A stretch of DNA of 64,000 nt. Origin: an uncultured Dehalococcoidia bacterium. GTDB lineage: Bacteria > Chloroflexota > Dehalococcoidia > Lucifugimonadales > UBA3495. The stretch is from assembly GCA_958296385.1 (NCBI GenBank), contig OY282494.1:2872981-2936980 (forward strand), in the 5' to 3' direction. The notes under the pieces were generated by a model that saw only the letters and a list, made by a program, of their open reading frames with translations, ran no database searches and was not told where the DNA came from. Positions 3,860-58,703 of this stretch are shown piece after piece. Every line of letters begins with the position of its first letter. Positions within the stretch are counted from its first letter, which is position 1. The position numbers and the translations under genes were made by a program.

Positions 3860-3958
3860 AATAGCCGCCTTTTTGAGATATTGATTGCCACCCCCATAGT
3901 AGCCGAATCCAGCAAATTGCGAAACTCCAAATCCAAAAAAATCAATGACACCATCACC

Positions 3959-3987
3959 TTGCAACCGCACATCAGTTCGTGTAAGAT
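3959..3987 (+). promoter_or_regulatory. promoter of ncRNA element 1, copy A
   Basis: TTGCAA (3959-3964) and TAAGAT (3982-3987) are separated by exactly 17 bp. An A-rich stretch just upstream may act as an UP element. The same two hexamers at the same spacing occur in copies B and C, with one -10 change in C, which supports a real sigma70-type promoter. Confidence 0.72.
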
Positions 3988-3993
3988 ACATCC

Positions 3994-4349
3994 ATCGGGC
4001 AAATCAAGCAACCCCCGCTACCAGCCGTTCTCAGTAAGAGGCATCCCTGGCGAGCGGGGCCATCACACCAAACCGCTAGCACCATCGCATCGTCGGAGAT
4101 TCAAGTCAAAACGGCCAGTCAGCAAAAAACCGCAATCGGCAAGGGTAGTCCCATCCCCGCTTACACGGCGTGGGCTGCCTCCGCAGGGTATCGAGCTTCA
4201 GCCCGCGTGCTGCCTCTCATTAGGGCAGGCCACGTAAAATGAAGGTCCAAAATAGTTGCGTACCAACCTCCGGCCGTAGGGCTGACAACGACTTGAATCT
4301 CCGACACCAAACCAAACCAACCGAACCGCCCGATACCGATAGCCCGATA
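3994..4349 (+). ncRNA. structured repeat RNA, element 1 copy A
   Basis: About 355 nt lie downstream of the conserved promoter; the conserved block with flanks runs from about 3929 to 4387. The 5' ATCGGGC (3994-4000) is complementary to GCCCGAT at 4328-4334 and again at 4342-4348, so the ends can close the molecule. A perfect 16-bp helix pairs 4092-4107 with 4290-4305. Inside it are smaller hairpins: GGGCTG with CAGCCC, a CTGC...GCAG arm, and CCT...AGG around CCGGCCGT. Reading frames through the element are not conserved between copies. I do not recognise it as RNase P, tmRNA, 6S or SRP RNA. The function is unknown, and the 3' end is inferred from conservation because no terminator is evident. 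Confidence 0.65.
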
Positions 4350-4493
4350 CAACACCCACCCGATACCAACCGGAGAATCCATCATGCCACCGTCCAACCG
4401 CGCGCCCCCCACCGTCGTTCTGCGCTGCGCCCAGAGCGGCCCAACCCCCAAACAAAATCCCGCAATTCCCCGCTTTTTGCCGCCGCCGGATGC

Positions 4494-4520
4494 TTGACAT
4501 CTATTGCGGATTGGTATAAT
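4494..4520 (+). promoter_or_regulatory. promoter of ncRNA element 2, copy 1
   Basis: Consensus TTGACA (4494-4499) and TATAAT (4515-4520) are separated by 15 bp. The second copy of the element has TTGACA and TATACT with the same 15-bp spacing, followed in both by CTCTATT. The short spacing is unusual but conserved. Confidence 0.72.
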
Positions 4521-4606
4521 CTCTATTCAAGGTGCTGGGGTTGCTGGGAAATCCCACTCACCGCAACCCGATGGTTCCGTACCGTCGTCATTGCAGGAGG
4601 TATAAA

Positions 4607-21901: not shown

Positions 21902-22005
21902 ACGGGGCAAAGCCGGCGACTGTATCGGCCAGCAGCGTTCCGTTCCAGGCGGTTTGGTTATTGCATCATCGGTCATCCTTGGGGAGTGGGTTTCGTGGTT
22001 GGCGG

Positions 22006-22388
22006 CATCGGGCTATCGGTATCGGGCGGTGGGTTCGGTTCGGTTTGATTGGTGTTGGTTGTTGTCGGAGATTCCAGTCGGTGTCAGCCCTTACGGCCGG
22101 AAGGTTTTTACGCAACTATTACGGACCTTCATTTTACGTGTCCTGCACTTTGGGGGAGCAGCACGCGGGCTGAAGCTCGATACCCTGCGGAGTACCGCCC
22201 ACGCCGTGGATGCGTCGATGGGTCGGCCTGGCCGATTGCGGTTTGGATGCTGACGGGGGTGGCCGTGGTGACTGGAATCTCCGGCGACGTTTGACGCGGT
22301 GTTGTGATAGTGTGTAGGCCCCGGTTCCTCAGGGGACGCTCTCCGTCGAGAACGGCTGAGGCGGGGATTGGTTGTTGATTTGCCCGAT
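22006..22388 (-). ncRNA. structured repeat RNA, element 1 copy B
   Basis: This is the minus-strand copy of the element at 3994-4349; the conserved block with flanks spans about 21964-22455. The 5' ATCGGGC (22388-22382) can pair with GCCCGAT in two places (22027-22020 and 22013-22006). The long helix pairs 22270-22282 with 22067-22079. Relative to copies A and C, one A-T pair in it is replaced by C-G on both arms. In the CCT/AGG hairpin an extra T-A pair is inserted (CCTT/AAGG). It ends about 70 bp upstream of the panB promoter. Confidence 0.65.
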
Positions 22389-22394
22389 GGATGT

Positions 22395-22423
22395 ATCTTA
22401 CACGAACTGGTGTGCGGTTGCAA
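22395..22423 (-). promoter_or_regulatory. promoter of ncRNA element 1, copy B
   Basis: On the minus strand TTGCAA (22423-22418), a 17-bp spacer and TAAGAT (22400-22395) match copy A exactly in both hexamers and spacing. Confidence 0.7.
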
Positions 22424-22483
22424 GGGGCGGGCGTCGCTGATTTTTGGGATTTGGCGGGGGGGCGTATCCTAAGGGGGTTGCCG

Positions 22484-22506
22484 CTGGGGGAAATGATTTC
22501 CCCCAG
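22484..22506. terminator. perfect hairpin downstream of the HNH gene
   Basis: CTGGGGGAAAT (22484-22494) and ATTTCCCCCAG (22496-22506) form a perfect inverted repeat with one central base. There is no T-run on either side, so it may be a rho-assisted or bidirectional terminator, or a protein site. Confidence 0.4.
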
Positions 22507-22591
22507 ACCCCCTCGGTGTATCGTTGAGGGCTAGGGCGCTGTGCGCGGCCGCGGCGGCCGGGGTTCGAAAAATCGTACTTATGGGATGCTC

Positions 22592-23059
22592 CTATAAACG
22601 TTCCAGCCGGGCACCGTTAACCAAGTCTTTCGCCGGCTGGCTCTCGAAATCGTGGACGATGACCCGGACGGTGTTTTGGACGCGCTTGAGCGCATCGGTT
22701 GCTGACCTTTCATCTTTCATCCAGCGGTTGGGGCGGGCTGCCGAGTTGCGCCTTTTCAGGCCGCTGAGGGTTAAACTGTTGCCTTTGGCGCCGTTGCAGG
22801 GGCTGCACAGCAGGATGCGGTTGTCAATGGTGTTGGGGCCGCCCTCGGATTTGGGGCGGATATGGTCAAGCTCGGTGAATTCGTGTTCCAGGACGCGCCC
22901 GCAGCCGACGCAGATGACGTTGCCGTTGCCAGACTGCTGTGCGTACCGGAGTACCACTTTAATCTGCGCGTGGGTTAGCTTTTGCCAGTCGGCGCGGGCT
23001 ACCTGCGGGGTGAGATGCAGGTCGGGGACGGTTTCCGTGCCGCCATCGGTGCGGGGGGG
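22592..23059 (-). CDS. HNH endonuclease domain, downstream part of a frame-split gene
   Basis: About 155 codons in a different frame continue the methyltransferase gene. A helical start (LTPQVARADWQKLTHAQIKV) leads into a zinc-bound HNH fold: VICVGCGRVLEHEF, ELDHIRPKSEGG, NRILLCSPCNGAKG. The CVGC and CSPC pairs are the zinc ligands and DH is the catalytic start. It has no ribosome-binding site or start of its own. Addition of one base (or loss of two) in the C9 tract (23053-23061, G on the plus strand) would fuse it in frame to the methyltransferase. Confidence 0.7.
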   Translation of the reverse strand, partial: PPRTDGGTETVPDLHLTPQVARADWQKLTHAQIKVVLRYAQQSGNGNVICVGCGRVLEHEFTELDHIRPKSEGGPNTIDNRILLCSPCNGAKGNSLTLSGLKRRNSAARPNRWMKDERSATDALKRVQNTVRVIVHDFESQPAKDLVNGARLERL

Positions 23060-23991
23060 GGCACGGTTTCGTATAGCACGGCGGCGTCCGGGTCGCGGAT
23101 GAGCTGGCGGTTGTCGTTGAGCCGCTGGACGACGACAGCATAGGCGCCGTCCCAGATGTCGATGCCGACCCACTGGCGGCCCAACCGCTCGGCGGCAACG
23201 GGGGTGGTGGCACAGCCGCAGAACGGGTCCAGCACCATGTCGCCCTCGTTGCTGCTGGCTTTGATGATGCGCTCGTAAAGGGCTAACGGCTTTTGCGTGG
23301 GATAGCCGGTGCGCTCTTTATCCATCGTATTCAACGATGGCATCAATATCACGTCGTCAGGGGTCTTGCCGGCCGGCGGTGTTTTACCAGCCTTAGCATA
23401 CCGCCATTGCGTCATGCCGCTCTCATAGGGTTCAAGGATAGCATCCCTGTTGAACACTGGCTTTTGTTTGCCGTACCACAAAACCGTATCGTGTGCCTTA
23501 GCAAATTGCCTCTTGCCCCGCGATGCGTTTTTATACCACCACACGATTTCATTCTGAAAGTTCTTTTTACCAAAGATGCCGTCCAGCAGCATCTTGGCGT
23601 AGGCGTGCGCCGTGTGGTCGATGTGGAGGTACAACGAGCCAGTGGGCTTCAGCACCCGGTGGCACTCAATGAGCCGCACGCCAAGCCAGCATAGGAACGC
23701 CGCCATATCCTGCCCCGACGTTACCCGCGCCGCCGCAATCGCCGCGTGGACGCCCGGCCAGTCGTCTTTGATGGCGTCCACCCATTCCTCATGCACGTCC
23801 CGCTCCCAATTCCAACGGTCGGTGAACTTGGCGCCGGCGGCCAGGCTGTCCGGCGTGGCATGGAAATCCCGGCTTTTGTTGAATGGCGGGTCGGTGGCGA
23901 TGAGGTCAACGCTTGCGCTGTTCATTCCACGCAGGACGTCCAGGTTGTCGCAGTGGTAGAGGGTGCGGGTTTGGAAATTGGCGGTGGTCAT
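22999..23991 (-). CDS. beta-class site-specific DNA methyltransferase
   Basis: The 330-residue enzyme methylates an adenine N6 or cytosine N4 in DNA. The catalytic motif IV DPPF comes early (DLIATDPPFNKSRDF). The SAM-binding motif I comes late (MVLDPFCGCATTPVAAERLG), the order of beta-class enzymes; WVGIDIWDGAY follows. ATG at 23991 gives the usual TLYHCDNLDVLRGM start; ATG at 24087 is possible. The frame ends shortly after a 9-base homopolymer, beyond which an HNH nuclease continues in the next frame, so the gene may be a switchable fusion or a mutated one. Confidence 0.85.
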   Translation of the reverse strand: MTTANFQTRTLYHCDNLDVLRGMNSASVDLIATDPPFNKSRDFHATPDSLAAGAKFTDRWNWERDVHEEWVDAIKDDWPGVHAAIAAARVTSGQDMAAFLCWLGVRLIECHRVLKPTGSLYLHIDHTAHAYAKMLLDGIFGKKNFQNEIVWWYKNASRGKRQFAKAHDTVLWYGKQKPVFNRDAILEPYESGMTQWRYAKAGKTPPAGKTPDDVILMPSLNTMDKERTGYPTQKPLALYERIIKASSNEGDMVLDPFCGCATTPVAAERLGRQWVGIDIWDGAYAVVVQRLNDNRQLIRDPDAAVLYETVPPPAPMAARKPSPTCISPRR

Positions 23992-28491: not shown

Positions 28492-28584
28492 CGGTTAGTT
28501 GAGAGCAGCGTTTCGTTGCCGGCGGTTTATTAGCCTGTGGGGGAATGGACGCTCAAAATGGCCCAAAGCAGCGGATTCAAGGGC

Positions 28585-28611
28585 TTGACAGGTATCAACG
28601 GATGCTATACT
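28585..28611 (+). promoter_or_regulatory. promoter of ncRNA element 2, copy 2
   Basis: TTGACA (28585-28590), a 15-bp spacer and TATACT (28606-28611), then CTCTATT, match copy 1. Confidence 0.7.
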
Positions 28612-28696
28612 CTCTATTGTAAGCGCTGGGGTGGCCGGGACATCCCACCCGCGATTACCAGATAACCGCCAGGTTGCTCTGCACAGGAGGTGCGAA

Positions 28697-57956: not shown

Positions 57957-58208
57957 AGGGGCCTCGCAGCCTACGGCAATGGCGTACTAGCGGGGGCTGG
58001 CCCTGGTAGGCATAATCGCAGTGTACAAGGCGGTACGCCGGCGCGCAAGGATGGGTCTAGTCCGGCAGCGTTGCGTTTTAGGCGGTTCAATCAGCCCACC
58101 GTCTGCCACTCTGGGCGCAGCGATGAATCCCAATGCCGCAGCAGCACCCTCGCCCCCAGGGTACGCCGGCCGCCCCGTCAAATCCAAAAAATCAGCGACA
58201 CCAATCAC

Positions 58209-58237
58209 TTGCAATCGCACTTTCGTTCGTGTAGGAT
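58209..58237 (+). promoter_or_regulatory. promoter of ncRNA element 1, copy C
   Basis: TTGCAA (58209-58214), a 17-bp spacer and TAGGAT (58232-58237). This is one -10 difference from copies A and B, with the same spacing and upstream A-tract. Confidence 0.68.
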
Positions 58238-58242
58238 ACATC

Positions 58243-58594
58243 TATCGGGCAAATCAACCAACCAATCCCCCCTTAGCCGTCCTCGCTCGAGAACATCCCC
58301 TGAGGAACCGGGGCCATCACACTGCTAGCACAACCGCTGGAGATTCAAGTCAAAACGGCCAGTCAGCATCAAATCGCAATCGGCAAGGGTAGTCCCATCC
58401 CCGCTTCCACGGCGCGGGCTGCCTCCGCAGGGTATCGAGCTTCAGCCCGCGTGCTGTCCGAAAAGGCAGGCCACGTAAAATGAAGGTCCAAAATAGTTGC
58501 GTACCAACCTCCGGCCGTAGGGCTGACAACGACTTGAATCTCCGACAACCAACACCAAATCAAACCGAACCCACCGCCCGATAAACGCCCGATA
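58243..58594 (+). ncRNA. structured repeat RNA, element 1 copy C
   Basis: This is the third copy of the element at 3994-4349; the block with flanks spans about 58180-58636. TATCGGGC (58243-58250) pairs over 8 bp with GCCCGATA at 58576-58583 or 58587-58594. The long helix joins 58339-58351 with 58531-58543. The CCCC...GGGG hairpin after the 5' end and the CTG...CAG arm are kept with changed loops. It converges on the hydrolase gene at 58704. Confidence 0.65.
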
Positions 58595-58703
58595 CCAGTC
58601 AACCACAAACCCTCTCCCAAAGGATGACCCATCATGACTTGACCAAACCACCCTGAAACGGAACGCTGCCTCTATTCCCCCCGGCTTGCCAACCCCCGTT
58701 TTA

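Follow-up and report, generated by a model that had tools for sequence, protein, structure and literature searches.

A candidate class of folded RNA adjacent to a HEPN-fold protein gene, with RNA-only copies in MITE-like elements of one Chloroflexota genus

A non-coding block that recurs three times within 64 kb, each time behind a pair of promoter-like hexamers, raises the question of what kind of element it represents and what keeps it in the genome. The window, i.e. the whole 64-kb stretch of DNA that was analyzed, covers positions 2872981-2936980 of a 3.3 Mb genome assembled as one contig (G000). BLASTN within the window re-finds the three copies of about 450 bp at the places and on the strands given by the original prediction, with 77-84% identity among them and E-values of 1e-89 to 1e-123 (Table 1). 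These places hold, but the conserved unit of copy C is longer than proposed and is bounded by inverted repeats (TIRs); copies A and B are incomplete as TIR-bounded elements. The hexamers TTGCAA and TAAGAT (TAGGAT in copy C), spaced by 17 bp, and the conserved common 3' end of the three copies are present as described. A strict sigma-70 consensus scan around the copies does not score these hexamer pairs as promoters. At the homologous positions of 27 subfamily representatives, the mean number of mismatches to TTGACA/TATAAT is 2.4 of 12, compared with 4.6 in shuffled sequence, and some subfamilies are near-perfect. The proposed multicopy, non-coding, promoter-headed and structured RNA is supported, its transcription being predicted from sequence. 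Three features extend beyond this proposal: a HEPN-fold partner gene, MITE-like ends in G000 and in a second genome of the genus (G006), and a two-codon ORF in most protein-less G000 copies.

Table 1. Features of the three copies in the 64-kb window (window coordinates)
Feature	Position	Strand	Basis
Copy A, aligned extent	3928-4350	+	BLASTN within the window
Copy A, A-rich tract 5' of promoter	3931-3945	+	direct reading
Copy A, promoter-like pair: TTGCAA 3959-3964, 17 bp, TAAGAT 3982-3987	3959-3987	+	direct reading; homologous positions in 27 subfamilies
Copy A, structured RNA core	4095-4302	+	alignments, covariation, P0 cognate test
Copy A, P0 closing stem	4095-4107 with 4290-4302	+
Copy A, P1 (probable pseudoknot)	4111-4116 with 4272-4277	+
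Copy A, P2	4118-4122 with 4282-4286	+
Copy A, P3, variable arm in between	4131-4136 with 4255-4260	+
Copy A, 3' end: Shine-Dalgarno GGAG 4372-4375, ATG 4384-4386	4372-4497	+
Copy A, ORF behind Shine-Dalgarno, 37 codons, MPPSNRAPP..., minority class	within 4372-4497	+
Copy B, aligned extent	22463-21932	-	BLASTN within the window
Copy B, promoter-like pair TTGCAA-N17-TAAGAT	22395-22423	-	direct reading
Copy B, structured RNA core; P0 22282-22270 with 22079-22067	22067-22282	-
Copy B, Shine-Dalgarno AAGGA 21980-21976 and two-codon ORF ATG CAA TAA 21966-21958	21958-21980	-
Copy B, 3' TIR, 2 mismatches to CCTGAAACGGAACGCTGCC	21931-21949	-
Perfect hairpin CTGGGGGAAATSATTTCCCCCAG, 5' of copy B	22483-22507	.
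Copy C, aligned extent	58169-58669	+	BLASTN within the window
Copy C, complete TIR-bounded MITE-like element, 607 bp; 5' TIR 58064-58082, 3' TIR 58652-58670	58064-58670	+
Copy C, promoter-like pair TTGCAA-N17-TAGGAT	58209-58237	+	direct reading
Copy C, structured RNA core; P0 58339-58351 with 58531-58543	58339-58543	+
Copy C, Shine-Dalgarno AAGGA 58620-58624 and two-codon ORF ATG ACT TGA 58634-58642	58620-58642	+

Alignments of copies of many subfamilies define the anatomy of the RNA. The promoter is followed by a leader of variable length, the 5' strand of the closing stem P0, ACGGCC (5' strand of P1), GUCAG (P2), an A-rich stretch, CGCAAC (P3) and a variable arm; the 3' part consists of GUUGCG (P3'), GGCCGU (P1'), CUGAC (P2'), P0', an A/C-rich linker (33% A, 39% C, 17% G) and a Shine-Dalgarno sequence. 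The core measures about 210-240 nt, and P0 comprises 13-21 bp. As thermodynamic folding of the RNA is not strong (z-score -0.96), the structural claim rests on covariation. In P2 and P3 together, 94.6% of cells are paired and 27 both-side changes are found compared with 7.5 in shuffles, giving a covariation score of 0.176 versus 0.072 for shuffled and at most 0.051 for slid alignments. The covarying pairs are G-C/A-U in P2 and A-U/G-C, A-U/U-A and others in P3. The sequence of P0 is wholly different between subfamilies, and its strands pair at a median of -28.7 kcal/mol with the cognate partner and -13.2 kcal/mol with the partners of others (p = 2e-13, 27 subfamilies). P1 is nearly invariant across subfamilies, which makes its pairing plausible while unproven by covariation; the pairing, and hence a pseudoknot, is probable. 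In G000, the linkers contain GCCCGATA two to four times, complementary to the 5' leader of the RNA (TATCGGGC), and linkers of the G003/G010/G012 type contain ATCGCCTG twice, complementary to the leader at CAGGCGAT. The expectation that the element belongs to no known family agrees with the Rfam search that had been suggested as a check: cmscan of the window and 24 related loci against Rfam 15 assigns this RNA to no family at the gathering threshold, and a relaxed search of copy A and nine loci finds no family matching this RNA. On this comparative evidence, the RNA is a previously undescribed folded class that matches no Rfam family. The HEARO/omega RNA of IscB/TnpB systems was considered and rejected, with no HEARO match, no iscB or tnpB gene, and a HEPN-fold protein as the conserved neighbor. 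A T-box leader on the contig of a relative (L144, 2539-2797) is unrelated to the element.

Copies were counted by sequence patterns rather than by a covariance model, because a first model, from which the variable arm had been removed, lacked the power to do so. The strict core pattern yields 50 copies in G000, 25 on each strand, and none for the reversed control pattern, in line with the earlier suggestion that many copies exist in the genome. Of the 14 genomes analyzed from the genus, 11 are positive with it (G006 99, G000 50, G002 21, G005 14 and 1-11 in the others), and a looser pattern combined with inspection adds the remaining three (G001, G004 and G013), so that the RNA is present in all 14 genomes with 1 to 99 copies each. 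Matches in 36 other genomes of the family stay at chance level, and 392 other genomes of the class contain none apart from one genome with a chance-like, unaligned match. Among about 85,000 GTDB species genomes, matches occur solely in MAGs labelled Chloroflexi, Chloroflexota or Dehalococcoidia. Among the genomes searched, the RNA was found nowhere outside this one Chloroflexota genus. An origin from phages or plasmids was also considered and rejected: phage and plasmid records show no BLASTN match to the repeat, and 13 loose-pattern matches in viral contigs approximate the estimated chance number.

Behind the Shine-Dalgarno sequence, several copies continue on the same strand into an ORF of about 140-245 codons that encodes a short HEPN domain followed by a variable tail. 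Each of the 14 genomes of the genus contains this HEPN-fold protein gene, and no genome outside the genus gives a match of that strength; other genomes of the family yield weaker matches (about E 1e-6) that extend over part of the domain only, and short HEPN-like ORFs in the same genomes give weak profile matches. Wherever the contig permits a judgement, the RNA nearly always lies directly upstream of the protein gene, the exceptions being L247 (G001), which has no recognizable RNA upstream, and L234, where the RNA is found at 690 nt. The full-length loci of G000 are located at 1163 and 1325 kb (L266 and L265). RNA and protein distances are correlated (r = 0.86; 0 of 5000 permutations), and genomes with several loci keep matched RNA-protein pairs; by these comparisons, the RNA gene and the HEPN gene are adjacent and co-inherited. 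A dN/dS of about 0.2-0.6 indicates that the protein is under selection. Terminator scans around copies A, B and C show no clear terminator between the RNA and the gene position.

A hmmscan of the protein against Pfam, NCBIfam, PADLOC and PHROGs returns nothing convincing and no Abi_2 match. In an AF2 model, residues 1-125 form a helical domain with pLDDT mostly above 90, whose best structure matches are 2hsb (Z 17.5), 1o3u (Z 15.4) and 1wol (Z 14.7). The ten best VIA matches, with Z from 17.5 down to 11.8, are nearly all HEPN proteins and exceed the level that unrelated bundles reach, and the protein is accordingly modelled as a four- to five-helix HEPN fold. It has the same fold over the whole N-terminal domain as the HEPN-T family (PF05168; AF_0298 2hsb, TM0613 1o3u, PaREP1-type 2q00), but differs from it in the absence of a Pfam match, in the lack of a conserved Rx4-6H motif and in having an RNA instead of a nucleotidyltransferase as partner. 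Because the last helix does not conserve this RNase motif and the RR.V segment is followed by no conserved H, toxicity is uncertain; many true HEPN families are without the motif (PMC3710099). Invariant polar residues are H9, S13, R38, S41, H42 and T45, including a conserved R38..H42 in helix 2. In seven species, the ORF begins with AUC-GGN-ACC or a near variant 8-9 nt past the Shine-Dalgarno sequence, and four of these loci contain no AUG, GUG or UUG in the open frame, for which an AUC start codon is the simplest reading. Apparent AUC-start HEPN-fold ORFs with an optimally spaced Shine-Dalgarno sequence are seen at L175, L148, L155, L163, L124, L128 and L233.

The element had been described as not being a leader tied to one gene. 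It has indeed no single host gene, but in full-length loci it is the leader and partner of one specific gene, that of the HEPN-fold protein. One serious rival makes the RNA a cis-acting regulatory 5' UTR of that gene, serving protein autoregulation or as a riboswitch, with the RNA-only copies as transposon-borne relics or decoys. The common orientation of RNA and gene, the Shine-Dalgarno sequence right behind the RNA and an AUC start suited to tight translational control fit such a role, as does the complementarity between leader and repeated linker motifs in G000 and the G003/G010/G012 type. This complementarity is not general across subfamilies (p = 0.20), however, and the core shows a mean divergence of 0.01-0.03 even in copies without a gene to regulate; we regard a cis-acting leader as unlikely. 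The explanation tentatively placed first, though it falls short of probable, is a module of RNA and HEPN protein similar to AbiF or type III toxin-antitoxin pairs, from which mobile elements with the RNA only are derived. Such a module fits the RNA-linker-HEPN order, the weakness of the AUC start, the paired divergence of RNA and protein, and the fact that mobile copies lost the protein but not the RNA. In AbiF, a HEPN toxin is neutralized by an upstream ncRNA in cis and in trans (PMC12373285). AbiF/AbiD (Abi_2; RF03085) likewise combines a HEPN protein and a structured ncRNA just upstream, on the same strand, as a unit. In contrast to AbiF, the loci described here show no RF03085 covariance-model match in the window and 24 related loci, a protein that Pfam does not recognize as Abi_2, an RNA core of more than 200 nt that is probably pseudoknotted rather than motifs of 33-37 nt, and RNA-only mobile amplification. 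Type III systems (ToxIN, CptIN, TenpIN) similarly have one promoter for an RNA and a small protein encoded behind it, but tandem RNA repeats, a ToxN fold and a clear terminator between RNA and gene are not found here. Membership in either group is not claimed.

In G000 and G006, the vehicle of the protein-less copies is a MITE-like element bounded by TIRs. Of 20 sampled G006 copies of subfamily 1, 17 have the inverted repeats GGCAGCGTTCCGTTTCAGG...CCTGAAACGGAACGCTGCC as a pair, and 10 of these 17 show 9-bp target duplications (TSDs) at an identity of at least 8/9. The mean TSD identity is 6.0 of 9 compared with 2.5 after permutation, and several imperfect TSDs match given a one-base shift. Both hallmarks of a MITE, TIRs (GGCAGCGTTCCGTTTCAGG) and TSDs of fixed length (9 bp), are thus found in G006. 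Most G000 copies retain the 3' TIR only, as does copy B, whose 5' TIR is not recognizable; copy C retains both and has an imperfect target duplication. The same TIRs bound short RNA-less elements (L262, G000:805958-806278; L260, G006:757388-757509; L263, G000:436006-436220), which suggests that a pre-existing MITE family captured the module; L262 looks like an RNA element with its core deleted. Within the best-spaced TIR pair of G006 (2300278-2302074), the ORF list, on which this judgement is based, contains no obvious transposase. TIRs, 9-bp TSDs, internal deletions, the lack of an internal transposase and tens of copies are shared with bacterial MITEs, from which the present elements differ in that they contain an entire structured RNA gene on which purifying selection acts. 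The original prediction had named a match to a transposon end as evidence against its claim. Copies in G000 and G006 do carry such ends, but the RNA family predates the transposon and is more widely distributed. The shared unit of G002 spans the promoter to the Shine-Dalgarno sequence without these TIRs, which points to a further mode of spread.

According to a second serious rival, multiplication of the element depends in cis on the folded RNA or on the equivalent fold in DNA, with the HEPN protein as cargo or regulator; only intact-core copies would leave descendants. A constrained core between variable flanks is what this predicts, the TIRs and TSDs show DNA transposition, and the G002 unit without such TIRs indicates a second mode of spread. 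Yet RNA-less MITEs with the same TIRs also moved, which shows that their transposase can act without the RNA, and the RNA co-diverges with the protein in low-copy genomes; multiplication through the RNA is judged improbable as the main explanation.

The divergence among copies indicates which part of the element is kept. In G000, the two core halves differ between copies by a pairwise mean of 0.035 and 0.027, whereas the promoter block reaches 0.19, the second half of the linker 0.24 and the sequence past the start codon 0.35. The core of G006 subfamily 1 (g1) diverges by 0.01-0.02, versus 0.11-0.26 outside promoter and leader; G006 values are 0.26 between TIR and promoter and 0.23 past the ORF start. 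Since nearly all compared copies are without the protein gene, it is the RNA and not the protein that is being kept. A core divergence of 2-3% versus 15-35% in the flanks of protein-less copies therefore shows, at the level of sequence comparison, purifying selection on the RNA core itself. A neutral repeat, in which recent MITE bursts and gene conversion mimic core conservation, would account for the greater similarity among copies of one genome than between copies of different species. Age, however, affects core and flanks alike, yet their divergence is about tenfold apart and the stems covary between species; neutrality is judged very improbable.

At the 3' end of the RNA, a Shine-Dalgarno sequence is recognized by pattern in 25 of 27 subfamily representatives, compared with 12 of 27 on the reverse strand, and the two exceptions read CCGGAGCC. 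In G000, it is followed by AUG-X-stop in 37 of 50 loci. One of these 37 (L282) is a chance match in a class of longer ORFs, which start with MPPS or MLPS and include that of copy A. In 27 of the mini-ORFs the second codon is ACU, the others having AAA, AUA, AGA, CGA, CAA or CAG; each of the three stop codons is used. Because copies were chosen for having AUG-X-stop, the evidence is only suggestive that a two-codon ORF is conserved behind the Shine-Dalgarno sequence of protein-less G000 copies. The two-codon minigene mg2 of axe-txe is reported to act in cis and probably stabilizes the toxin mRNA, possibly by protection (PMC8708949). Shine-Dalgarno and AUG-X-stop are common to this minigene, lambda bar and the present elements, in which, unlike in the known cases, they lie 3'-terminally in a non-coding RNA and are present in tens of copies.

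For the RNA-HEPN module, the following course of events is proposed. One promoter would give rise to a transcript headed by the pseudoknotted RNA, and the same transcript, past the A/C-rich linker and the Shine-Dalgarno sequence, could encode the small HEPN-fold protein. The RNA would most likely bind and restrain this protein, by analogy to AbiF and type III RNA antitoxins, with a high output of RNA, a low output of protein and, in one clade, an AUC gene start. In G000 and G006, TIR-bounded MITE-like transposons would have captured the module, and internal deletions would have removed the protein gene to leave RNA-only elements, which multiplied to 50 and 99 copies, respectively, with the core intact. 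Protein-less copies would be harmless, the RNA being the restrainer of the protein, and a ribosome loading at their Shine-Dalgarno sequence would read just AUG-X-stop in most G000 copies. Transcription, RNA-protein binding, neutralization and ribosome loading as a means of RNA protection are steps that we infer. A number of 50-99 copies is not explained by host benefit, because a host needs only few antitoxin genes. It is conceivable, if rather doubtful, that a structured RNA with a HEPN partner has by now become an RNA-only mobile element, which sheds the protein, gains AUG-X-stop and spreads under selection on the RNA as an "antitoxin-only" element.

Non-coding RNAs upstream of HEPN proteins are thought to be ancestral to Cas13, at its root, and to our knowledge very few natural examples are known. 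The RNA described here is larger and probably pseudoknotted, its partner belongs to a different HEPN family, and many cognate pairs are available in one genus. Dozens of RNA-only copies allow the sequence requirements of the RNA to be read almost as in a mutagenesis experiment. The system makes it possible to test whether an RNA antitoxin can evolve into a selfish element in its own right, and why a terminal Shine-Dalgarno sequence with a two-codon ORF would be kept by a non-coding RNA.

Several minor observations concern the surroundings of the copies. The palindrome CTGGGGGAAATSATTTCCCCCAG is linked to most G000 copies, about 60-150 bp 5' of the promoter, and may be a terminator or a transposon-internal hairpin. 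An HNH endonuclease gene (22592-23173, minus strand) lies just 5' of copy B on the same strand. In the flank of copy A, BLASTN detects a second repeated stretch at 4492-4558, which recurs at 28583-28648 with 78% identity and contains a TTGACA/TATAAT-like pair.
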